This document shows positions 246 through 40,242 of a stretch of 64,000 nucleotides of DNA, in pieces. The notes beneath the pieces are model-generated. The model ran no database searches and was not told the origin of the DNA. It saw nothing but the letters and a program-made list of their open reading frames with translations. The DNA is from Thermoplasmatales archaeon. GTDB taxonomy: Archaea; Thermoplasmatota; Thermoplasmata; Methanomassiliicoccales; Methanomethylophilaceae. The stretch lies in assembly GCA_012515075.1 (NCBI GenBank), contig JAAYZC010000046.1, positions 1-64,000 on the forward strand. Direction: 5' to 3'. Numbering within the stretch: the first letter of the stretch is position 1; every line of letters starts with the position of its first letter. The translations under genes and the position numbers were made by a program.

Positions 246-1004
246 TCAGCCTATGTATCCGAGATCCTCGTTGTTCTGGGTGTCCTCGTATTCCTTGACC
301 TTGGCGGTGAGGACGTCTATCTGGTCGGCTTTCTCCTTCAGGTCCGCGGTGTCTACCTCGACTCCCAGGAATCTCTCGAGGACGCCTATTATCGCCATCG
401 CGCTCTTGTGGTCCACGAAGTATCCGGACGTCTCGCCCATCAGGCACACTCCGGGTATGCCGTATATCTTGCCGAGTCCCAGGAAGACGCCGCTGGCTCC
501 CACGATGCCCGCCGTGGGCTCGCCCGAGCGGAACAGGACCCCGTGCTCCGACATCTCCTCCTTGATCTCCTTCCCGTTGGCTGCCCCCATGACCCGGGGC
601 TCGTCGACCATCGCCCCTGTGCCGTAGCCCCCCAGGGTGATGATTTTGGACACGTCCAGCTCCAGGAGGGCCCCCATCATGTCGCGGGCCAGATCGAACT
701 GGCCTTCCGCAGTGGACCCCTGGTACTCCCCTTTAAGGAAAATTATGTCCGCCCCCCCGCCGACACCCCGGACGTACCATAGCTCGTTGTTCGCCATCTC
801 CACGATGCAGTCCTCGTCCAGGGTGACCTGGGGAGGGAAGTGCCTGGAGTATATGCTGGCGAAACGCTTGGCGCCCAGGGATTCCATCAGCAGGTCCGCC
901 GCTATCTTTCCCACGTTCCCGACGCCCGGCAGGCCCTCTATGAAGACGGGGCGCTCCAGCTTCGGGTGCTCTTCATACACGATTATGCTTTCCATTCTCC
1001 CCAT
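246..1004 (-). CDS. PAC2 / proteasome assembly chaperone family protein (start may be Met at 995)
   Basis: Translation contains EGLPGVGNVGKIAADLL and is downstream of nop10, as in the archaeal eIF2alpha operon. Confidence 0.85.
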   Translation of the reverse strand: MGRMESIIVYEEHPKLERPVFIEGLPGVGNVGKIAADLLMESLGAKRFASIYSRHFPPQVTLDEDCIVEMANNELWYVRGVGGGADIIFLKGEYQGSTAEGQFDLARDMMGALLELDVSKIITLGGYGTGAMVDEPRVMGAANGKEIKEEMSEHGVLFRSGEPTAGIVGASGVFLGLGKIYGIPGVCLMGETSGYFVDHKSAMAIIGVLERFLGVEVDTADLKEKADQIDVLTAKVKEYEDTQNNEDLGYIG

Positions 1005-1161
1005 ACTCCTCTTTCACGGCGACCCTTCTGTAAGGGCCGTAACGGTCTTCCGGCGAGAACTTCGGAGGCGCGGGGCTGGCGGTGGCGGAACCGCAGGAGC
1101 CGCATACCTCCTCCATGGAATACCTCCCGCAGGCGGGACATCTTCTGAGATGCGATCTCAT
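973..1161 (-). CDS. nop10: RNA-protein complex protein Nop10
   Basis: 62 aa, CPACGRYSMEEVCGSCG zinc motif, PKFSPEDRYGPYRR. Confidence 0.92.
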   Translation of the reverse strand: MRSHLRRCPACGRYSMEEVCGSCGSATASPAPPKFSPEDRYGPYRRVAVKEEYGENGKHNRV

Positions 1162-1171
1162 ATAGGTATCC

Positions 1172-1954
1172 TTATTTGCTTTCGCGTTTAAGAGATGCTG
1201 TGCCGCCCGCGGCGACGAGAGAGTCTATGGCCGCCGCGGAGACCTTCTTCATGACCTCCTCGGCCACCTTGTACTCGTCGGCGGTTATGACGATGCGGTA
1301 CTTGGGGCAGCCCACGCAGTGTATGGAGACGTCGGCGTCTTCGGCCGAATCCTGGGCCTTGAAAAGGGCGGCCCTTATGCGCTCCACTCCGTCGGGCGCC
1401 GAGGACTGGAGCTCCAGGATGCCGTCTATCTGGACGAACGGGGGTGTGACGTTCTCCTCGGCGACCTCTATGAACACGCCGGTCCAATCTCCCTCGAACT
1501 CCTCCAGGAAATCCTTCGGAGCGGCCACCACGGATTCGAAAGCGCTGTAGAGCGTGCCGTACTCCTCCAGGAGCTGGCTGCCGAACATGTCGTAAGCCTC
1601 GTCGAGGGAGATGGAAAGCCTCTCGGCTATTATCTCCACCAGCTTCTCGGCCTTGTTCTCGTTCTTCCATTGCTGGATCTTCTCGCGCTTCTGATGCTCG
1701 TTGACCGATTTTAAAGACAGGTCGATGTGACCCTTTGATGAATCGACGCCCAGGACCTTGCAGACGGTCTTCTGACCTTCTCTGACGTAGTCTCTGATGT
1801 ACTTGACCCAGCCAGTGGCGATATCCCTGACGTGTATGAACCCTTCCTTGTCCTCGTACTCGTCGAGCGTCACGAAAGCGCCGAAGCTCTTAACGCTCTT
1901 GACCGTGCAGACTACGAGTTCTCCGTACTCCGGGAAGCCCCTGGCCCTCGACAT
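1172..1954 (-). CDS. eif2a: Translation initiation factor aIF2 subunit alpha
   Basis: [34 protein letters not shown]1 domain; start ATG at 1954 overlaps the S27e stop (TGATG). Confidence 0.95.
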   Translation of the reverse strand: MSRARGFPEYGELVVCTVKSVKSFGAFVTLDEYEDKEGFIHVRDIATGWVKYIRDYVREGQKTVCKVLGVDSSKGHIDLSLKSVNEHQKREKIQQWKNENKAEKLVEIIAERLSISLDEAYDMFGSQLLEEYGTLYSAFESVVAAPKDFLEEFEGDWTGVFIEVAEENVTPPFVQIDGILELQSSAPDGVERIRAALFKAQDSAEDADVSIHCVGCPKYRIVITADEYKVAEEVMKKVSAAAIDSLVAAGGTASLKRESK

Positions 1955-2121
1955 CAGCCGACCACCTCGAGCACTTCGCCCTTGACCTCTCCCTTGCCGC
2001 CCTTGGGGCGCACCAGGGTGGACCCGCAGACATGGCAGGACACCACGGTGGCGGGTTTGCTGAAGGCGATCTGCTCGTTGCCACAGTCGGGGCATCTGAT
2101 CTTTATGAAATCATTTACCAT
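1954..2121 (-). CDS. rps27e: 30S ribosomal protein S27e (55 aa, absent from the supplied ORF track)
   Basis: Hand translation [55 protein letters not shown]. Confidence 0.95.
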
Positions 2122-2127
2122 GCTGCA

Positions 2128-2406
2128 TCACTCCGTGAGCTCGAACTTCTTTGCTCTTATGCATGCGGTGAGGTGGGCCTTCTTGCAGGTGTTGCATCTG
2201 TATCTGATGTTCACCCTTTTGGTGGGCTTCTCTCTTCCTTCGGGCTTGGGCCTGGGGAAACCTCCGTAACCGGCGGTGACCTTTCTGAATCTCCTCTGGC
2301 CCCATTTGAGCTCGCTGGCCTTCTTCTTCTTGACCCTTTCCACATCGTGCATGGTGTGGGTCTTGCAGTAAGGACAGTAAGTCTTGATCGTTCTGGGCAT
2401 CTTCAT
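2128..2406 (-). CDS. rpl44e: 50S ribosomal protein L44e
   Basis: MKMPRTIKTYCPYCKTHTMHDVERVKKKK...YRCNTCKKAHLTACIRAKKFELTE. Confidence 0.95.
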   Translation of the reverse strand: MKMPRTIKTYCPYCKTHTMHDVERVKKKKASELKWGQRRFRKVTAGYGGFPRPKPEGREKPTKRVNIRYRCNTCKKAHLTACIRAKKFELTE

Positions 2407-2635
2407 ATTATTCACCTGTTAAGCGAATCAGACCGTCTAACATCGAAGTCATATAAAAATCATTACCCTGCCCCTTAAAGGAGGCATAGGCGGATGGCGG
2501 AGTGCCGGTGCAGGCGACCGCCGGTTCCCCCGGGCGCTCCGGGAGCAGTATCTGGAACCACGGGGGACGATTGCAATCAAATAATATAGTGGAATAAATA
2601 TATATTTATATCGGGTGCATCTCTTGGATTCAACC

Positions 2636-3007
2636 ATGGCAAAGAAAGATTTCTCCACAGAATCCGCAGTCAATGCCCTCGTCAGCACGGGCATGAAGAA
2701 GAACACCGCGAAGGTGCTCATACACCTTGCCATCCATAAGACCACGACCTCTGACGAGGTGGAGCGCGTCTTCGGGCTGGGACAGCCCGGCGTCTCCGCA
2801 TCCATCCACGACCTGGATGACAGAGGCTGGATAAGGATAAAGCAGGTCAAGGGCACCGGCAAGGGCAGGCCGAAGCACACGTATTTCCTGTCTAAACCGT
2901 TCTCCAGCATAATCGAGGAGATCGAGGCCTGGGAGAGGGCAAGGGCCGCCGCGATACTCTCCAACGTGTCCGATCTGAAGAGCATGGCGGAGGAGAGCCC
3001 TCAGTGA
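2636..3007 (+). CDS. TrmB/MarR-like winged-helix transcriptional regulator
   Basis: wHTH pattern KVLIHLAIHKTTTSDEVERVFGLGQPGVSASIHDLDDRGWI. Confidence 0.7.
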   Translation: MAKKDFSTESAVNALVSTGMKKNTAKVLIHLAIHKTTTSDEVERVFGLGQPGVSASIHDLDDRGWIRIKQVKGTGKGRPKHTYFLSKPFSSIIEEIEAWERARAAAILSNVSDLKSMAEESPQ

Positions 3008-3687
3008 CCCTTCCTCTCGATCGTACCGTCGGATGAGGACACCAGGACAGTGGACGCGAGGTTCAGGAAGAGCCCGTTGTCCACAACACCCGGAATCACG
3101 TTTATCCTGGATTCCAGGAAGAAGGGGTTGTTTATCGATTCGAACTTGCAGTCGTAGATGTAGTTGCCCCCGTCGGTTACGAAGGGGAGGCCGCCGCTCA
3201 TCCTCAGGGTGGCCACGCAGCCCTGTCTCTCCAGAGCGGTCTTGACGAATGGGTGGCCGAAGGCGAGGACCTCCACGGGGAGCGGGGCCCTCGTGCCCAG
3301 CACGTCGACCTTCTTCGATTCGTCCACCACTATGATCTCCTGCCTGGATGCGGCTGCCACTATCTTCTCCCTCAGCAGGGCGCCCCCCAGCCCCTTTATG
3401 AGCTGCATTTCGGGATCCACCTCGTCCGCGCCGTCTATGGTCACGTCCAGGTGGCCGACCTCGTTTATGGACACGGTGTCTATCCCGTACTCCCGGGCCA
3501 GGCCCTCGGTGCCGCTGGACGTCGCCACGCAGGTCAGGTTGTATCCGTTCTCCCGGACCAGCCGGCCGACCCTTCTTATGGCATGGTAGGCCGTGGACCC
3601 GGTGCCCAGGCCGACCTTCATCCCGTCCTTCACGTAGTCGTCAACCGCTCTCTCAGCAACAATTCTCTTGAGATCGTCAGAGGTCAT
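3001..3687 (-). CDS. rpiA: Ribose-5-phosphate isomerase A
   Basis: VGLGTGSTAYHAIRRVG, DGADEVDPEMQLIKGLGGALLREKIVA. Confidence 0.95.
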   Translation of the reverse strand: MTSDDLKRIVAERAVDDYVKDGMKVGLGTGSTAYHAIRRVGRLVRENGYNLTCVATSSGTEGLAREYGIDTVSINEVGHLDVTIDGADEVDPEMQLIKGLGGALLREKIVAAASRQEIIVVDESKKVDVLGTRAPLPVEVLAFGHPFVKTALERQGCVATLRMSGGLPFVTDGGNYIYDCKFESINNPFFLESRINVIPGVVDNGLFLNLASTVLVSSSDGTIERKGH

Positions 3688-4381
3688 TTTCGATCATCTC
3701 GATTACCGCATCCACGATATAACCGTTTACCTCCTGGCCGAACTCGGCGGAGGCCCGGGCGGTGTCACCCGCCATCCCGACGGGGAAGCAGATGCTGGCA
3801 TCCCTCACTATCATGTAACCCTGGCTGACGTATCTGCCCACGGGCCGGTCCTCGCGGACCAGGTCCGGGCGTATGGCCATGACCCGGGACGTCTCCAGCA
3901 TGCCCGCATGACCGTCACCCTCCAGGTCGGCGCATCCCGGGTGCCTTTCGGCTATGTCGTAGTCAGTGAAGAACATGATCTTCGCATCGTTCCTCTGCAC
4001 CACGGTCTTGCAGGCTTCCGACAGGGCCGTCAGGTGGGCGCTCCCGGCGTGCCCGCTGATCACTACGAACCTCTTGGCTCCCTGGCGTATGAATTCCTCC
4101 AGTATGTTGACCGCCAGAGCCCGGAGGTTATCGAAGGTCAGGCTGATGGTGCCGGGCATGTTCTTAGTGGACGAGTGGTTCCCGTAGGGAACCGCCGGCG
4201 CCACCAGGACGTTGTCCAGGGATTCCGCTATGCGGTCGGCTATGTACTGCGGCTGCAATGTGTCGCTGGAGAGGGGCAGGTGCGATGCATGCGCCTCGGT
4301 CGCCCCCCAGGGGAGTATTATCACGGGATCGTTCCCCACGACATCCTTCCAGTCTTCCGCTGTCATCTCTTCTATGCGCAT
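3677..4381 (-). CDS. Creatininase family protein (start Met at 4381)
   Basis: ILPWGATEAHASHLPLSSDTLQPQYIADRIAE, VPYGNHSSTKNMPGTISL, VVISGHAGSAH. Confidence 0.88.
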   Translation of the reverse strand: MRIEEMTAEDWKDVVGNDPVIILPWGATEAHASHLPLSSDTLQPQYIADRIAESLDNVLVAPAVPYGNHSSTKNMPGTISLTFDNLRALAVNILEEFIRQGAKRFVVISGHAGSAHLTALSEACKTVVQRNDAKIMFFTDYDIAERHPGCADLEGDGHAGMLETSRVMAIRPDLVREDRPVGRYVSQGYMIVRDASICFPVGMAGDTARASAEFGQEVNGYIVDAVIEMIENDL

Positions 4382-4436
4382 GATGCCCCCATGCACGTGG
4401 TCAGTGATTAAATTGCTGATTGCCGTACCGGGGTGC

Positions 4437-5126
4437 ATGAGATTGGCGGCGCTGTACTCCGGAGGCAAGGACTCGACGATGTCAGCATACGTGGCCCTGC
4501 AGATGGGCCATGAGATCGCGTGTCTTGTGAGCATACTGCCCGAGGACAGCGGATCCTGGATATTCCACACTCCCAACCTGGACGTCGTGCCCCTGATCTC
4601 GGAGTCCATGGGGATCCCCCTGGTGTCCGCGCCCAGCACGGGGACCGAGGAGGGGGACATGGAGGCGCTGGCCGTAGCCCTCGAGGGTCTGGACGTCGAA
4701 GGTGTGGTCACCGGTGCGCTCTGGTCCGATTACCAATGGGACCGCATCAATATGGTGTGCGGGGACCTGGGCCTGAAGGTGTTGTCCCCGCTGTGGCGCA
4801 AGGACCAGGACATGCTGCTGGACGAGATGATCTCCGCAGGGATATCGGCAGTGATCGTGGGATGCTACGCCGAGGGCCTTGGCAGGTCCTGGCTGGGGCG
4901 CCCTATAGACGCGGCCGCGGCCGAGGACCTCCGGGCTCTAAGGTCCAGGTACGGGATAAGCGTGATGGGGGAGGGAGGGGAGTACGAATCGCTGACCCTG
5001 GACTCCCCCATGCACTCCCGTCCGCTGGTGATAACCGAGTCCGAGGTGGTCTGGAAGAAGGACAGCGGCACCCTCCACGTGCGCGCCTCAAGGCTCGGCT
5101 CCCGGCGAGAAGCGGGTGAGCCTTAA
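4437..5126 (+). CDS. dph6: Diphthine--ammonia ligase family ATP-pyrophosphatase
   Basis: MRLAALYSGGKDSTMSAYVA P-loop, GEGGEYESLTLDSPM motif. Confidence 0.88.
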   Translation: MRLAALYSGGKDSTMSAYVALQMGHEIACLVSILPEDSGSWIFHTPNLDVVPLISESMGIPLVSAPSTGTEEGDMEALAVALEGLDVEGVVTGALWSDYQWDRINMVCGDLGLKVLSPLWRKDQDMLLDEMISAGISAVIVGCYAEGLGRSWLGRPIDAAAAEDLRALRSRYGISVMGEGGEYESLTLDSPMHSRPLVITESEVVWKKDSGTLHVRASRLGSRREAGEP

Positions 5127-7274
5127 GGAATTGAGGACCACGGACACCGAGGACACGGACATCGCGGCCGCGGCTATCATCGGCATGCCGTGTATCATCC
5201 CCATCCCCAGCAGGTAGGGCAGCCCGGCGGCTATGGGTATGCATACGGCATTGTAGCAGAAGGCCAGGAACAGGTTCTGCTTTATGTTCCCAAGGGTGGC
5301 CCGGCTTATCTCAACGGCCGTGGCCATGTCGCCCAGGTCGTCCCCGATCAGCACCACGTCCGCAGAGTCTATGGCTATGTCGGTGCCCGACCCCACGGCG
5401 AAACCAACATCGGCACGGGCCAGGGCCGGGGCGTCGTTGATGCCGTCCCCGGCCATTATGACCGTCCTCCCTTCGGACTGCAGATCCCCGACCGCCGCAG
5501 CTTTGTCGTCGGGACGGGCGCTGTGGCGGTATTCCGGTATTCCGGCCTCGGCAGATATCCTGCGGGCGGCTCCCTCCGAATCCCCCGTGATCATCACGAC
5601 GTCCAGGCCCAGCCCCCTCATCCTTTCCACGGCCGGGCGGCTGGAATCCTTAATGGTGTCCGCCACGGCTATGAGCCCGAGGACCTCACCGTCCGCCGCC
5701 ACGAACATCACCGTCTTGCCCTCCTCCGAGAGAACGGCATGCTCCTCCGCGTATGCCGACGGGTCGGCCCCCTTCTCCTCCACGAGGGCCCGGTTCCCTA
5801 TCAGCACACGGACCCCTTCCAACTCGCATTCTATCCCCCCGCCGACATGGGCCCTGAAACCCGACGGCCTGCGTACGTCCAGCCCCTCCTCCACGGCGCG
5901 TTCGACGACCGCCTTGGCCAGAGGATGCTCGGAAGAGCTCTCGGCCGATGCGGCGATGCCGAGGACGTCACCCACGATATCGGTGACGCGCGGTCTCCCC
6001 TCGGTGACGGTGCCGGTCTTGTCCAGCACCACGGTGTCGGCCCGGCCCGCGGTCTCCATGGATTCCGCGTCCTTGAAGAGTATGCCCATCTCCGCGGCCT
6101 TCCCGGTCCCCACTATGATGGCGAGCGGAGTGGCCAGCCCCAGGGCGCAGGGGCAGGATATGACCAGGACGGATATAAGGACGGTGAGGGAGAACCCGAT
6201 GTCCCTTCCCGCGGCCAGCCAAAGCAGGCAGGCCGCTATCGCCACGGTCATGACCGCCGGGACGAAGACCCCCGCGACCCTGTCCGCCATGCGGGATATC
6301 GGGGCCTTCGAACCCTGGGCCTCCTCCACCATGCGCACGATCCTGCGCAGCACGGTGTCCTCGCCCACGCCCTCGGCCGTCATCAGTATGCTGCCGCTCA
6401 CGTTGACGGTGCCGCTGAAGACCCTGTCCCCCGCCGTGCGGTCGGCGGGAACGCTCTCCCCGGTCAGCATGGATTCGTCCACGGCGGTCTGCCCCTCTGT
6501 GACCGTCCCGTCGGCCGGGATGCTCTCCCCGGGCCTTATGACCACGGCATCCCCGGCCCTCAGCTCCTCCACCGGTATGCGTACCTCCCGGCCGTCCCTC
6601 ATGACGGAGGCCTCCCCAGGGGCGAGGTCCAGCAGCCTTCTCACGGAATCACCCGTCCTCTTCCTGGATCTGGATTCCAGGTACTTCCCGACCATGACAA
6701 GCGCTATTATCATCGCCGCCGAGTCGTAGTACAGCTCGTGGACGTCACCGGAGCCGCCCAGGACGGCCGAGGTGATGTAAAGGCTGTAGATCACCGCCGC
6801 GGAGGTGCCCAGGGCGACGAGCGTGTCCATGTTTGGGGTCCGTCTGGCAAGCGCCGGGAAACCCCTCGTGTAGAAGCGCCTTCCGGCCAGCAGCACGGGT
6901 ACGCACAGCGCTAACTGCATCAGGGCCAGGGCCCTGTCGTCGTCTCCGAGCGGCCCCAGCGGCAGGCCTATCATCGGCCCCATGGCCAGATATATGATGG
7001 GTATCGAGAACAGCACCGCTGCGGCCAGGTCCCTGCCGATGTCCGCCGGCATGTCGGAGGCCGGAGAGTCAAGCACTTTGAAGCCCGCCTTCCTGACTAT
7101 CTTAGAGAGCTCGGACACGCTCGTCCGGGATTCGTCGTACTCCACCGCGGCGGTGCTCCGGGGCAGGCTCACCGAAGCGGAGGAGACGCCCTCGGCGTTC
7201 CCGAGAGCCTTTTCCAGGGATTGGGAGCAGGAGGCGCAGGTCATGCCCCCTATGTTGAGGACGACCCTTGTCAT
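5088..7274 (-). CDS. copA: Heavy-metal (Cu+) translocating P-type ATPase
   Basis: N-terminal GMTCASC HMA domain, SCPCALGLATP, DKTGTVTEG, GDGINDAPALARADVGFAVG. Confidence 0.95.
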   Translation of the reverse strand: MTRVVLNIGGMTCASCSQSLEKALGNAEGVSSASVSLPRSTAAVEYDESRTSVSELSKIVRKAGFKVLDSPASDMPADIGRDLAAAVLFSIPIIYLAMGPMIGLPLGPLGDDDRALALMQLALCVPVLLAGRRFYTRGFPALARRTPNMDTLVALGTSAAVIYSLYITSAVLGGSGDVHELYYDSAAMIIALVMVGKYLESRSRKRTGDSVRRLLDLAPGEASVMRDGREVRIPVEELRAGDAVVIRPGESIPADGTVTEGQTAVDESMLTGESVPADRTAGDRVFSGTVNVSGSILMTAEGVGEDTVLRRIVRMVEEAQGSKAPISRMADRVAGVFVPAVMTVAIAACLLWLAAGRDIGFSLTVLISVLVISCPCALGLATPLAIIVGTGKAAEMGILFKDAESMETAGRADTVVLDKTGTVTEGRPRVTDIVGDVLGIAASAESSSEHPLAKAVVERAVEEGLDVRRPSGFRAHVGGGIECELEGVRVLIGNRALVEEKGADPSAYAEEHAVLSEEGKTVMFVAADGEVLGLIAVADTIKDSSRPAVERMRGLGLDVVMITGDSEGAARRISAEAGIPEYRHSARPDDKAAAVGDLQSEGRTVIMAGDGINDAPALARADVGFAVGSGTDIAIDSADVVLIGDDLGDMATAVEISRATLGNIKQNLFLAFCYNAVCIPIAAGLPYLLGMGMIHGMPMIAAAAMSVSSVSVVLNSLRLTRFSPGAEP

Positions 7275-7492
7275 ATCATTCCGCGCTTGACCGCCGCCTC
7301 GAAGCCAGCATCCTCCACGGCCCTGACGAGACCCTCCGTAGGGACGTCCCCTTCGTACTCCACGACGGCCCTCTTCTTCTTAAGCGAGACCTCCGCCGAG
7401 ACGACACCCGGGCAGCCCCTGAGGGCAGCCTCCACCTTCTCCACGCAGGCGTTGCAGCCCATGCCCTCCACGTTCAGTGTGACCTTCTTCAT
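7271..7492 (-). CDS. Heavy-metal-associated (CopZ-like) metallochaperone
   Basis: 73 aa HMA domain with GMGCNACVEKVEAAL; overlaps copA start by 4 nt. Confidence 0.9.
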   Translation of the reverse strand: MKKVTLNVEGMGCNACVEKVEAALRGCPGVVSAEVSLKKKRAVVEYEGDVPTEGLVRAVEDAGFEAAVKRGMI

Positions 7493-7532
7493 GCATATCC
7501 CTCATCGTGCTGAACCGTTATCGTCCCGCAAT

Positions 7533-10500
7533 CTATTTAGGCTTTCCTAAATAAATGGCCTTCTCTATGGCCTCCGTGATCCTGCCCATCTCCTCCTCCT
7601 CGTTCCGCCACAGCCAGGGCGTCCACACCCTGTGGATCCTCCAGCCCCTGGATTCAAGGTATTTCTGCCTGTGGTAGTCCCTCTCCCTGGAATTGGAGGA
7701 CATTCTGTAGAGCCTGCCGTCGCATTCTATCCCGAGGACGTACCTCCCCTCATGGACCACGGCGAGGTCTATCCGATAGCCGCCGATGCCCACGTCCCTC
7801 TCCACGGTGTAGCCCCTCTCCGTGAGGATGTTGTAGACCCTTTCCGCCGTCGGGTCCTCACCCGCGGAGGCCTCGGCACCGCCGGGCATCCGGCCCCCGA
7901 AGGATTCCAGGATGCTCTGCTCCAGCCCCTTGTCGCCGTCGCTGACGGCCTTGGCGTACTGAAGGTACTTCTTAAGGATGCGGGGCCCCTCGTTCTTGGA
8001 CTCCTCCACCCTCAGCTCCTCGGGGTCGAAGGAGGTCACTATGAATATCTTCCTCCTGGCGCGGCTTATGGCGACGTTCAGGCGGTTCTCCCCTCCCCTG
8101 TTGTTGAGCCATCCGAACCTCTGCATGAGCCTCCCGTCGGAGTTCTTGGCATAGCCGAGGGAGAATACGATGACGTCCCTCTCGTCCCCCTGGACGGACT
8201 CTATGTTCTTTATGAACAGGCCTATGTCCTCGCCGTTCTCGTAACGGTTGCTCTCCTCGTTCACCATCCTGGCCAGGTCCGGGTCCTTGGCGCACTCCTC
8301 GTCCAGGACGTCGTTTATCAGGTCCCTCTGGGATATGTTGAAGGTTATGATGCCGATGGTCTCCCCTCCCCTGCGGTCCTCGAAGAACCTCCGGATGATC
8401 GATACGACCTCCTCCGCCTCGGCTCTGTTGCTCTTGTTCTCCCACAGCCCGTCGGTCCTGACGACCTCTATGGGAGGCCTCTCGGGCCGGACCGTGTTGG
8501 GGGAGACGTAGAGCCTCCCCTTGTAGAACGCGTAGTTGGAGAACGCGATGAGCTCCTCGTACCTGGAGCGGTAGTGGAAGTTCAGGAGTATGGAGTCGTA
8601 ACGGGCCCTGGCCAGATCCAGCAGGCTCTCCTCCTCCAGCGCGGCCGGCAGCATGAGCTCCTCCTCCGCCCCGTCCTCGTCGTACTCTATGCGTCCGGAA
8701 CCCAGGCTGGAGGGGCGCAGCTGCTTGTGGTCCCCGGCCACCACGACCTTCTTGGCGCGGTATATCGAGGGCACCCCCTTCTCGACGTACATCTGAGAGG
8801 CCTCGTCGAATATCAGGAGGTCGAAGAGCCCCATCTCCAGGGGGAGGATCTCGGACACGACCTCCGGGGTCAGGAGCCAGATCTTGACGCCTTTGAAGAG
8901 TTCGAACCCGTAGCGGTTTATGAACTTGTTCAGGCTCCACCTGCGCTTGCTCTCGACTATGCGGATTATGTCCCCTTTCCTCTTGGATTCCGTTATGTAC
9001 CTCAGGTTCTCGCGGAGGATGTTCTCCACGCGGTCCCTGGTCATCTCCCTCTTGCGGCATATCTTGGTGTCCATGTCCGCTATCACGCTGTCGAAGTCCC
9101 TTATCTGCTGGACAAGCGAACGGTGGGCGGAGTCGAACTCCCTGAGACGCTCGGATATTATGTGGTCGCGGATCAGACGGTTGGTCTCCGAGTAGTCGCC
9201 CGGCATCCGACGGTTCAGGTCCACGAGCCCTTCGCCGTAGAGCTTCTCCTCCTTCGTCAGCCTCCGGTACACAGTGGCCTTGGAGGCGAAATCGTCATAG
9301 CGGTCCAGGCCCTCGAATACCGACCTCGGGTCTTCCAGCACGGTGTCCACCAGCCGCTGGCCGTAGTTCTCGAAGTACCTGTTCAGCATCGCGGTGGCCT
9401 CCCGCTGGACCTTCCCCTTGGTGAACAGCCTGGATAGGAACCCCTTCGAGTTCCAACTTACCATCTGGTCCTCCAGATCCAGCAGGTCGGCCTTCATCTG
9501 GCCTATGTTGTAATCCGTGAGGTCGGCCCTCATCATCTGCATCCAGGGGACCTCCGAAGCCAGTTCCCGGTACCCCGCAAGGTTGGTTATCAGCCCCCGG
9601 TCGGAGTAGCGCTCGTGCAGATTGCACACAGAGGTGTAGTCCAGCCTGATGAGAGCGGGGGGCACGCTGTCCTTCACGGCCTTGTAGGCGTCGAAGTTGG
9701 TCTTGTCCGAGAGGTCCACCCTCCTGTCCATGGAGTACAGCCTGTAAGGCTCTATGCCGAAAGGTCCCGGAGCGTACATGCCCTCGGCTATCCTGTCCAG
9801 GACCGTCACGTCGTTGTCGATGCCCACGGAAAGCGGGGTCAGGTCCGATATGGGGCCCGACACCCCGGCCGTGGCGAACATCCGCTCGAGCTGGTCGTAG
9901 AAGAGGTCCTTGTTGGCGACGTCGTCTATCAACAGGGCGTATCTGCTCAGGTTCCCGAGTCTGGAATAGACGACGTCCAGGGCAGTCTTCTTCTCCGAGA
10001 CCATCAGCACCGTCTTGCCGCCGTCTATGGCGGACGTTATCAGCCCGGTTATTACCTGGGACTTGCCGGTGCCGGGGGGCCCCTGGACCACCAGCTTGTC
10101 GCCTTTGTTGATCGCCGTTATCACGTTCTCCTGGGCGCTGTTCAGGGAGTTTATGTAGACGAGCTCCCCCTCCGAAGCGGACATGCCTCTGTCTCTTATC
10201 TCCTCCTGGCTCAGAGGCTCCGGGGTCTCGGAGAAGAAGTCGGTGTCGTCAAGGTCAGCGATCAGGTCGCTCAGTATGCCGTTGATCTCCTTCTTGGATA
10301 TCAGGCCGTCTATGTCCCTCTGTATTGAGCTGGAGTACGTGGGGTACTTCCCCAGCACCATGCACTGGACCGTCCTGAGCTCGCCCGCGTTGTGCTTAGG
10401 GAATGTGTCCTGGGTGTAGTTGACGAAGGGCACCGGTTCGCCCTCCTCTCCGGAGACCGAGATGCCCTGTTCCGCATAGAACTCCAGCATGTCGCTCCAG

Positions 10501-11279
10501 AAGGTGACCTCCCCGTACTCCTCAAGTATGCAGTTCGGGAGCGGCCGGTTGGACCCCCCGAACTTTATGTACGCCAGTACAAGGGTGCCGTTGTAGAGGG
10601 CATCCCTGGAATCGTCCCTGGTCACGTATATCCTCTGAGAATCCTTCTCGAGCTTCACCGGGAAGAGCGCCAGAGGGGCCCTTATATCGAAATCCCCCTC
10701 AGCCATCCTGCCCTCGACGAACGGGTAGGCCACGTAGAGGTCGTACTGCCCTTTCTCCCTCTGGTCCCTGTTGACCTCCCTCATTATCCCGGAGAGGTGG
10801 GTGAACATCCTGCCCTCCTCCTTCCCCTTGGACGCATCGCAGAGCTCCATCGGGCGCTTCCTTCCGAATATCAGCCCCTCGCGGTCGAAGCCCTCGACAG
10901 ACATCATGTCGAAGGTGTTCTTCCGCATTATGCGGGGCTGGAAGAGAAGACGGTTGCCGCGGCTTATGTTGATCAGCTTCTTCTCCAGCTCCCTGAGTGT
11001 GTCCGCGGACCTCCTGTCTATGGAGGAGCCGTTGGAGCGGGACCTCGAATGATCCTTGGTTACCTCCAGGAACGCCGGGCCGTGGTTCCTGAGGAAGCCG
11101 GGCCCCAGGCCGACGATCGCACCGAAGTCCTCGATCTTCGTAGGCACCGTCCTGCTTATCTCGTAGAGCGCCTCGTCAGAGCAGATCTCGGGCAGGCGGC
11201 CGTTCTTGTACGCATTCTCCTCCCTCAGCCTCTCCCTCAGCCTGTAAAGTTCGATGTAAAGTTCTCCCTCTTCTCCCAT
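7533..11279 (-). CDS. HRDC-like / DUF4011 / SF1 (Upf1-like) helicase with C-terminal Vsr/MTES_1575-like endonuclease; putative defence protein
   Basis: N-term LRERLREENAYKNGRLPEICSDEALYEISRTVPTKIEDFGAIVGLGPGFLRNHGPAFLEV (HRDC-like); LEKKLINISRGNRLLFQPRI (DUF4011-like); Walker A VVQGPPGTGKSQ; Walker B LLIFDEASQ; GDHKQLRPSS; C-term IDLAVVHEGRYVLGIECDGRLYRMSSNSRERDYHRQKYLESRGWRIHRVWTPWLW. Confidence 0.88.
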   Translation of the reverse strand: MGEEGELYIELYRLRERLREENAYKNGRLPEICSDEALYEISRTVPTKIEDFGAIVGLGPGFLRNHGPAFLEVTKDHSRSRSNGSSIDRRSADTLRELEKKLINISRGNRLLFQPRIMRKNTFDMMSVEGFDREGLIFGRKRPMELCDASKGKEEGRMFTHLSGIMREVNRDQREKGQYDLYVAYPFVEGRMAEGDFDIRAPLALFPVKLEKDSQRIYVTRDDSRDALYNGTLVLAYIKFGGSNRPLPNCILEEYGEVTFWSDMLEFYAEQGISVSGEEGEPVPFVNYTQDTFPKHNAGELRTVQCMVLGKYPTYSSSIQRDIDGLISKKEINGILSDLIADLDDTDFFSETPEPLSQEEIRDRGMSASEGELVYINSLNSAQENVITAINKGDKLVVQGPPGTGKSQVITGLITSAIDGGKTVLMVSEKKTALDVVYSRLGNLSRYALLIDDVANKDLFYDQLERMFATAGVSGPISDLTPLSVGIDNDVTVLDRIAEGMYAPGPFGIEPYRLYSMDRRVDLSDKTNFDAYKAVKDSVPPALIRLDYTSVCNLHERYSDRGLITNLAGYRELASEVPWMQMMRADLTDYNIGQMKADLLDLEDQMVSWNSKGFLSRLFTKGKVQREATAMLNRYFENYGQRLVDTVLEDPRSVFEGLDRYDDFASKATVYRRLTKEEKLYGEGLVDLNRRMPGDYSETNRLIRDHIISERLREFDSAHRSLVQQIRDFDSVIADMDTKICRKREMTRDRVENILRENLRYITESKRKGDIIRIVESKRRWSLNKFINRYGFELFKGVKIWLLTPEVVSEILPLEMGLFDLLIFDEASQMYVEKGVPSIYRAKKVVVAGDHKQLRPSSLGSGRIEYDEDGAEEELMLPAALEEESLLDLARARYDSILLNFHYRSRYEELIAFSNYAFYKGRLYVSPNTVRPERPPIEVVRTDGLWENKSNRAEAEEVVSIIRRFFEDRRGGETIGIITFNISQRDLINDVLDEECAKDPDLARMVNEESNRYENGEDIGLFIKNIESVQGDERDVIVFSLGYAKNSDGRLMQRFGWLNNRGGENRLNVAISRARRKIFIVTSFDPEELRVEESKNEGPRILKKYLQYAKAVSDGDKGLEQSILESFGGRMPGGAEASAGEDPTAERVYNILTERGYTVERDVGIGGYRIDLAVVHEGRYVLGIECDGRLYRMSSNSRERDYHRQKYLESRGWRIHRVWTPWLWRNEEEEMGRITEAIEKAIYLGKPK

Positions 11280-11380
11280 CGGACTCCGATGGTCTTACTG
11301 GGTTATATATCTGATAACGCGCCGCCTGCCGGGATCGGGGAGGGGGATGTTCTAATAACCCCGCCGACGATACCGGGTCC

Positions 11381-11773
11381 ATGTTGGAAATCGGTTTGAG
11401 GCGGGAGGGCGTATGGAAGGTGTCAGAGGGACTGACCGCCGCCTCGATGAAGAGCGGCATGCTGGAGGTCTTCGCCACTCCCGCCGTGGTCGCATTCGTG
11501 GAGGAGACCGCCGCGGACTGCGTGGCGCCTTTCCTCCGGGAGGGCCAGAGCACCGTGGGCACCGTCGTGAACATATCGCATTCCGCTCCCACGCCGGCGG
11601 GCGCAGAGGTCCGTTGCACCGTGGAGCTCACCGAGGTGGACCGCAGGAGGCTCGTGTTCAGGGCCACCGTCACGGATCCCTTCGGAGTGATAGCGTCGGG
11701 GGTCCACGAGCGTTTCGTGGTGGACAACGACAAGTTCATGGAGAAGGTGGAGGAGAAGAGAAGGTCGCTCTGA
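11381..11773 (+). CDS. Thioesterase family (hot-dog, FlK-like) protein
   Basis: MLEVFATPAVVAFVEETAADCVAPFLREGQSTVGTVVNISHSAPTPAG. Confidence 0.82.
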   Translation: MLEIGLRREGVWKVSEGLTAASMKSGMLEVFATPAVVAFVEETAADCVAPFLREGQSTVGTVVNISHSAPTPAGAEVRCTVELTEVDRRRLVFRATVTDPFGVIASGVHERFVVDNDKFMEKVEEKRRSL

Positions 11774-13219: not shown

Positions 13220-14497
13220 TCATACCATGCCCGATACCAGGGAGGGGATTATGAGACAGCCCGTCAGGCAGGTGCGGTCCGTCCCTGCGGCCGAAGGCAC
13301 GAGACCGACCGTCACGGATGCCGCAAGCACCGCGACCCCCAGTTGGCCGGTCAGCAGGACCGTCAGCGCGAGCAGGGCGATAAGCACCGCGAGGCTGGTT
13401 CTGCGGGGATCTGCACGGTTCGCCATGTCGCAGAAGACCCTTCCGAAGGCCAGGGTCGCGGCGTAACCGAGCACGGAAGCCACCGCCACGCCCAGGAGAA
13501 GCAGCAGGAAAGTCGGGGAGCAGAAGCCACCCAGGCCCTCTCCGATGATATCCCCTGCCACCACCATCACCCCGGATCTGCCGCTCCCGGACACCGAGAG
13601 TGTCACCAGCGTGAAGACGGCCGAGGCGGTTCCGATCGAAGCGACCATGGATATGAACCTCTCCGGGCGCTCCTCCGGCATGGCCATGCCCGACAGGACG
13701 GCCCCCGTGGTGGCCGTTATGCCGGGGAACCACCCCACCAGGCACCCGGTGATGGAACCTTTGATCCCGGGCCAGGCGTCGACGGGGCATATTCCGGTAT
13801 CGGTCTGGGGCGGAACCGCACCGCCCGCTGCAGAACCGAGCAGCATGGGGACACCGAAAAGCCCGGTGAGCAGGGGGAAAAGCAGATTGCCGTCACCCAG
13901 GGGGACGGCGGTGGGCCCGGCCCACATGCAGACGACCCCGAGCAGGCCCGACAGCGCCATGCAGGCGGAGGACCAGACGATCCCCCGGACGTTATCCTCC
14001 CTGAGAACGATAAGACAGGACACGATGATCAGGACCGCCAACGTGAGGGAGTCCAGGTATTCTCCTGCACCGTCCATCAGAACGTATTGCAGCGGGACGG
14101 CGAACACCAGCGCGGAGACGGCACCGACCGCGCTGCCGGCCGCCGAGGCCCTCACCGCCGCCGCGCCTCTGCCCGAATGCAGGAGCCTGTGGCCCGGGGT
14201 CATGCTGACGATCTCATCCGGGCCGGGAGCCCCGAGGAAGACCGAAGGTACGAAGTCGACGAAGGAATGGGCGATCCCTGCGGAAACGACGCAGGCCGCC
14301 ACGGCCGCCGGGACGGTTCCGTCGGGCAGAAGAGGGGAGAGGCCGGCGGCCATCGACGGGTACGAGACCAGCATCAGGGATGCCAGCGTGTTCACGTGTA
14401 TCCCTGGCAGTATGCCGGTGACTATGCCCATCAGCGAACCGGCCGCGCTCATCAGGATGACTGGTACTACGATCTCCGGCCCCACGTCCGAATCCAC
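13220..14497 (-). CDS. TctA-like (tripartite tricarboxylate transporter/COG1784) integral membrane protein
   Basis: GSLMGIVTGILPGIHVNTLA, SFVDFVPSVFLGAPGPDEIVSMTPGHRLL, many TM segments. Confidence 0.75.
   Translation of the reverse strand: MDSDVGPEIVVPVILMSAAGSLMGIVTGILPGIHVNTLASLMLVSYPSMAAGLSPLLPDGTVPAAVAACVVSAGIAHSFVDFVPSVFLGAPGPDEIVSMTPGHRLLHSGRGAAAVRASAAGSAVGAVSALVFAVPLQYVLMDGAGEYLDSLTLAVLIIVSCLIVLREDNVRGIVWSSACMALSGLLGVVCMWAGPTAVPLGDGNLLFPLLTGLFGVPMLLGSAAGGAVPPQTDTGICPVDAWPGIKGSITGCLVGWFPGITATTGAVLSGMAMPEERPERFISMVASIGTASAVFTLVTLSVSGSGRSGVMVVAGDIIGEGLGGFCSPTFLLLLLGVAVASVLGYAATLAFGRVFCDMANRADPRRTSLAVLIALLALTVLLTGQLGVAVLAASVTVGLVPSAAGTDRTCLTGCLIIPSLVSGMV

Positions 14498-38770: not shown

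Positions 38771-40242
<1,472 letters not shown>

Follow-up and report, generated by a model that had tools for sequence, protein, structure and literature searches.

A helicase-nuclease with HRDC and DUF4011 domains as a core gene of crown Methanomethylophilaceae, possibly with a RecBCD-like function

In the crown genera of the Methanomethylophilaceae, methane-forming archaea of the gut, a gene which joins an HRDC domain, DUF4011, a superfamily 1 (SF1) helicase and a Vsr-type nuclease in one chain behaves as an ordinary core gene. Its locus is fixed, its composition is native and it is under purifying selection. Tentatively, and giving the idea almost even weight, we read the product as a constitutive, RecBCD-like single-protein helicase-nuclease for DNA processing which was acquired horizontally and subsequently fixed. 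The anatomy, i.e., motor and nuclease together with likely structure-binding modules, and the genomics, transferable and then fixed, are both fitted best by such a constitutive processor.

The gene is located in a window of 64,000 nucleotides, the whole stretch of DNA that was analysed. A first-pass annotation had reported an ORF at exactly the positions given below and left the strand unstated. The ORF is real and intact, and all motifs quoted at the time are found in its translation.

7533..11279, minus strand: the whole gene, a single ORF of 1248 aa, with which full-length homologues can be aligned over residues 1 to about 1241
11303..11311, minus strand: a TATA-like element, read directly from the sequence; it precedes the ATG by 24-32 bases and falls within the spacer to the divergent gene

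A chance ORF of this size is not seen in 50 shuffled windows, the longest stop-free run of which was 379 codons. The GC content of the gene (0.60) equals that of the window, and GC3 (0.865) is similar to that of the neighbours or slightly exceeds it. The position of the TATA-like element suggests a leaderless or near-leaderless transcript. A 187-aa ORF overlapping the gene start (11176-11739, minus strand) was rejected; it has no family match, and the conserved gene at this place is the opposite-strand ORF at 11381-11773. That the host is an archaeon, as had been assumed, is confirmed by an archaeal 16S gene in the window; its named relatives belong to Candidatus Methanomethylophilaceae in the order Methanomassiliicoccales. 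Completeness of the host genome is 79%. The 16S rRNA gene is at 38772-40242 on the plus strand with no 23S or 5S match within the window; the rRNA genes seem to be unlinked in this host.

The originally proposed domain order, HRDC, DUF4011, SF1 helicase and Vsr-type nuclease, was borne out by Pfam. HRDC (25.4 bits, cut-off 23.8), DUF4011 (32.4 bits, cut-off 22.2) and the MTES_1575 nuclease (102.1 bits, cut-off 38.2) each score above the curated cut-offs, as do AAA_11 at residues 379-443 and AAA_12. From the N- to the C-terminus the features are:

11061..11231, minus strand: HRDC domain, residues 17-73 (fold about 3-82), Pfam E 1.4e-5 and RecQ HRDC fold match
10578..10811, minus strand: DUF4011, residues 157-234 by Pfam (E 1.1e-7), structured region about 95-345 by AlphaFold2
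10056..10085, minus strand: Walker A, QGPPGTGKSQ, residues 399-408; G400, G403, G405, K406 and S407 identical in 90/90 family members
8970..9932, minus strand: long, mostly helical insert between the helicase halves, residues about 450-770, from AlphaFold2 secondary structure
8793..8807, minus strand: Walker B/motif II, DEASQ, residues 825-829; D, E, S and Q identical in 90/90 family members
8031..8624, minus strand: AAA_12, second half of the Upf1-like helicase, residues 886-1083, Pfam E 2.5e-20 and fold match
7566..7844, minus strand: C-terminal MTES_1575 (Vsr-type) nuclease, residues 1146-1238, Pfam E 1.8e-29
7719..7769, minus strand: putative nuclease active site, D1171 ... E1185-C-D1187; D1171, E1185 and D1187 invariant in a 35-sequence archaeal alignment

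The protein thus possesses everything which characterizes the broad class of DUF4011-SF1-Vsr helicase-nucleases: DUF4011, the SF1 motifs and a nuclease with D1171, E1185 and D1187. The active-site assignment, derived from the alignment and the family pattern, is putative. Two AlphaFold2 models were built, both from 47 sequences comprising the window protein and related loci. The model of residues 1-385 (mean pLDDT 88) matched solved RecQ HRDC domains in Foldseek with a probability of 1.00 and target TM of 0.83-0.85, yet with weak E-values of 0.09-0.24; the HRDC of RNase D/Rrp6 was also among the fold matches. A fold search of the PDB with the same model returned no solved relative of the DUF4011 region. 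The model of residues 95-1248 (pLDDT 86) matched the Upf1-like helicases SETX, IGHMBP2, Upf1, Sen1 and Dna2.

On this basis one can envisage a mode of action. The HRDC and DUF4011 regions would engage branched or partly single-stranded DNA. The Upf1-like motor, judged by its fold, would translocate, probably 5' to 3' like its solved relatives, and the C-terminal nuclease, which has an invariant active site, would cut behind or beside the motor. An RNA substrate, as in Upf1/SETX-like RNA surveillance or R-loop removal, appears very improbable. The closest solved helicases are indeed mostly RNA or R-loop helicases (SETX, IGHMBP2, Upf1, Sen1), and HRDC occurs in RNase D/Rrp6 as well; yet the Vsr nuclease fold cuts DNA in its known members, and some Upf1-like helicases, Dna2 for example, act on DNA.

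The surroundings of the gene are metabolic. The first-pass annotation had noted metal-homeostasis and transporter neighbours and no mobile-element markers, and among the neighbours scanned this holds: none of them is an integrase, transposase or defence gene. The scanned genes encode a copper-type P-ATPase, creatininase, rpiA, aIF2-alpha, a PAC2-type proteasome chaperone, MFS and TctA transporters, a phosphoribosyltransferase and adenine deaminase. Conserved neighbours are:

246..4711, minus strand: block of creatininase, rpiA, aIF2-alpha and PAC2-type chaperone; order-wide, near the helicase-nuclease gene in crown genera
5088..7274, minus strand: copper-type P-type ATPase, downstream neighbour, at the locus also in g4, g12 and g13 relatives
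11381..11773, plus strand: small divergent ORF of 130 aa, nearest upstream neighbour, beside the gene in 27/28 crown relatives examined
13220..14497, minus strand: TctA-family transporter (Pfam), conserved upstream neighbour, in 27/28 crown regions

Reading of its sequence makes the 130-aa ORF possibly thioesterase-like. Between the gene and the copper ATPase a small ORF (7275-7493, minus strand), reading MKKVTLNVEGMGCNACVEKVEAALRG..., ends at the ATPase start; by eye it resembles a CopZ-like heavy-metal-associated chaperone. The aIF2-alpha ORF (1172-2095, minus strand) is likely over-long, with the true start near residue 50: the NCBIfam match starts at residue 51, and in many relatives the aligned reading is interrupted by stops.

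The search covered 101 genomes of the order, one genome per species, with many draft assemblies among them. The crown Methanomethylophilaceae are the genera g1, g4, g5, g11, g12 and g13. All 32 crown genomes possess the protein: 29 have it in full length, in two it is divided between contig ends, and G054 has a divergent fragment at a contig end. Crown relatives are 53-65% identical to the window protein, a degree of conservation intermediate between that of aIF2-alpha or rpiA and that of PAC2 or TctA. Of 28 with readable surroundings 27 have TctA and 25 have rpiA in the same region (within 20 kb); two of the three regions lacking rpiA end at contig ends. None of the 28 lacks both genes, i.e., there is one locus wherever the surroundings can be read. 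Between close relatives dN/dS is 0.04-0.15, like that of housekeeping neighbours; within the archaeal gene the strongest constraint is on the nuclease domain (0.00-0.04). In the gene tree each genus forms its own clade, free of foreign tips, with support of 0.33 to 1.0; the crown clade has no bacterial sequence inside (support 0.997). Branching between genera agrees only in part with the three-gene species tree; g1 and g13 move.

Beyond the crown the picture changes. The protein is absent from g9 and g14, the first to branch in the three-gene tree, and mostly absent from g7 and g2. In genera without the gene the entire junction differs and TctA is located elsewhere. G002 (g3) has a copy with 41% identity, also near creatininase. 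The g6 genomes contain one or two divergent copies at other loci, some genomes holding two different copies. Several of the divergent g6 copies, among which are L057, L058, L059, L060 and L062, adjoin a gene of about 590-630 aa which is probably of the threonyl-tRNA-synthetase type. Matches to mad3/mad8/AriA near g6 copies come from a pair of ATPase-like genes in the single genome G051 and were discarded as not general. Most genomes of families f2 and f6 (G061-G100) contain other DUF4011-type helicase-nucleases, the majority of them longer, with 2-5 matches per genome; f5 genomes have none. The first-pass annotation had stated that strict same-locus conservation in all relatives with housekeeping-like evolution would refute a defence system. 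This is what is found in the crown genera; it does not extend family-wide, with g9 and g14 lacking the gene and g6 carrying it elsewhere in divergent form.

Does the gene then encode a dedicated genome-maintenance enzyme without any role in defence, Dna2-like, for end resection or for processing forks and recombination intermediates? Core status in the clade, vertical inheritance, a fixed locus and housekeeping-like dN/dS are what one would expect of it, HRDC is typical of RecQ-type repair helicases, and one of the fold matches is Dna2, which likewise combines an Upf1-like helicase with a nuclease. We nevertheless regard this as rather unlikely: g9 and g14 live without the gene, and it is patchy and transferred among bacteria. 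The resection nuclease NurA was detected, weakly, in a single one of 61 genomes of the order compared with 7/14 controls, which fits a maintenance role; yet NurA is missing from lineages with and without the gene alike. The gene as a NurA replacement was rejected, since NurA does not track it. An order-wide lack or divergence of NurA in Methanomassiliicoccales is possible.

Full-length homologues with HRDC are present in gut Clostridia (47-48% identity to the window protein), Treponema (44-46%), Acholeplasmatales, Izimaplasma and Haloplasma; in the first three groups the protein has about 1240 aa. HRDC had been taken for an extra, archaeal module. This cannot be upheld: 46 of 47 sampled relatives, bacteria included, possess it, and all 47 possess DUF4011 (E <= 0.01), i.e., HRDC is a property of the whole subfamily. 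In bacteria the protein is rare and its distribution patchy, with 4/59 in a Treponema genus and 1/81 in a Ruminococcaceae-type family. The simplest explanation of the wider family is that the gene was transferred horizontally between gut microbes; the direction of transfer is one we infer. Clostridia copies (L165, L168-L170, L174, L176, L178) reside near mraZ, mraW and genes for penicillin-binding proteins, all from the cell-division cluster; these surroundings, too, are not of the defence kind.

The gene had initially been put forward as a defence system. The kinship to defence families stands. The genomic behaviour of defence systems, variable presence and a defence-island context, is not encountered in crown Methanomethylophilaceae, where 32 of 32 genomes carry the gene at a fixed locus among metabolic neighbours and with housekeeping-like rates; elsewhere presence is patchy. 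A conventional, infection-triggered anti-phage system of the Hhe/ProA type is in our view distinctly unlikely. It would agree with the best named matches, which are defence families, and with the patchiness in Treponema and Ruminococcaceae-type genomes. Distant relatives also occur on plasmids and in viral contigs; phage records gave one distant hit and plasmids distant DUF4011/DUF3320 proteins only. Defence-model matches among bacterial neighbours are few, some being restriction or Septu/Gabija-like genes, and there are no regular defence islands. It does not agree with the scores, far under the curated cut-offs (543 bits for ProA, where 1500 are required, and 376 for Hhe, where 2000 are required), nor with fixation in the crown clade outside any defence island and with no sign of fast evolution, nor with an order which lost the nuclease and kept the motor.

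This order is the Acholeplasmatales. In its main clade (L288-L304) E1185 is replaced by I, L or V in 17/17 orthologues, and many also lack D1171 or D1187. Walker A, motif II and the motif VI core are intact in all 17. In this clade the helicase evolves more slowly than the nuclease domain, the reverse of the situation in archaea; the nuclease domain is still under purifying selection. The surroundings of these genes are partly conserved. The degenerate nuclease implies that cutting is dispensable in some lineages. Possibly, although we would not call it probable, a defence-type helicase-nuclease from the gut gene pool was domesticated into a core genome-maintenance gene of gut methanogens, and in the Acholeplasmatales the protein turned into a motor whose nuclease is dead; what the family conserves would then be unwinding or remodelling, and cutting would be optional.

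Returning to the RecBCD-like processor, its history might be as follows. The family would move horizontally within the gut community, and one copy would have been fixed in the ancestor of the crown Methanomethylophilaceae and then kept under strong purifying selection; the phylogeny, the locus and the rates are observed. By analogy with RecBCD its role would most likely be innate clearance of invading or abnormal DNA while tolerating or serving the cell's own DNA metabolism. Several observations argue against it: the metabolic neighbours, bacterial copies without regular defence neighbours, the degenerate Acholeplasmatales nuclease, the only partly congruent trees and the existence of g9 and g14 without the gene. 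In defence catalogues such proteins are called anti-phage on the grounds of homology, and here the members of the subfamily behave as core genes in at least one archaeal clade. Caution is advised before every DUF4011 helicase is called a defence system. Archaeal core status, together with bacterial nuclease loss beside an intact motor, is a testable case for the boundary between defence and DNA maintenance.

How does the protein compare with named systems? Kinship to Hhe-type proteins, as originally suggested, is corroborated by matches to the PDC-S37, ProA and Hhe models. Among all libraries that were searched, the best match is to PDC-S37, a PADLOC candidate family (E 1.2e-162, spread over three stretches); its model has 1550 positions, the window protein 1248 aa. 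With ProA (NCBIfam NF058533, anti-phage, 1903 positions) it shares the helicase core and the C-terminal nuclease region, at 543.5 bits against an equivalog cut-off of 1500. With Hhe (NCBIfam NF042953, PADLOC PDLC02194; models of 1797 and 1911 positions) it shares DUF4011, the SF1 helicase and the MTES_1575/Vsr nuclease, at 375.9 bits against an equivalog cut-off of 2000. The N-terminus of Hhe is a HEPN domain; that of the window protein is HRDC, and Pfam reported no HEPN family at E <= 1. By curated cut-offs the protein is thus outside Hhe and ProA, and it may nevertheless work in a similar manner. A literature search retrieved no publication in which PDC-S37 is named or DUF4011 is linked with Hhe, nothing usable on ProA defence and no experiment on any member of the HRDC subfamily. 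Dna2 has a nuclease of a different family, a different domain order and neither HRDC nor DUF4011. Its likeness is a Upf1-like helicase and a nuclease in one chain (5eaw, 5ean). Giant HEPN-transglutaminase-SF1 helicase-Vsr-wHTH proteins of the MTES_1575 type (>2000 aa) have been described (PMC3710099). In these, as in the window protein, the SF1 helicase is followed by the MTES_1575 Vsr-type nuclease; the window protein, at 1248 aa, has no match to HEPN, transglutaminase or the C-terminal wHTH (DUF3320). A precedent for a lineage-core DUF4011 gene, likened here by its description, is that of Pseudomonas aeruginosa, which is present in every isolate and flanks the defence hotspot cDHS1 (PMC10250203). 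The Pseudomonas gene borders a defence hotspot, whereas the gene in the window is flanked by metabolic genes.
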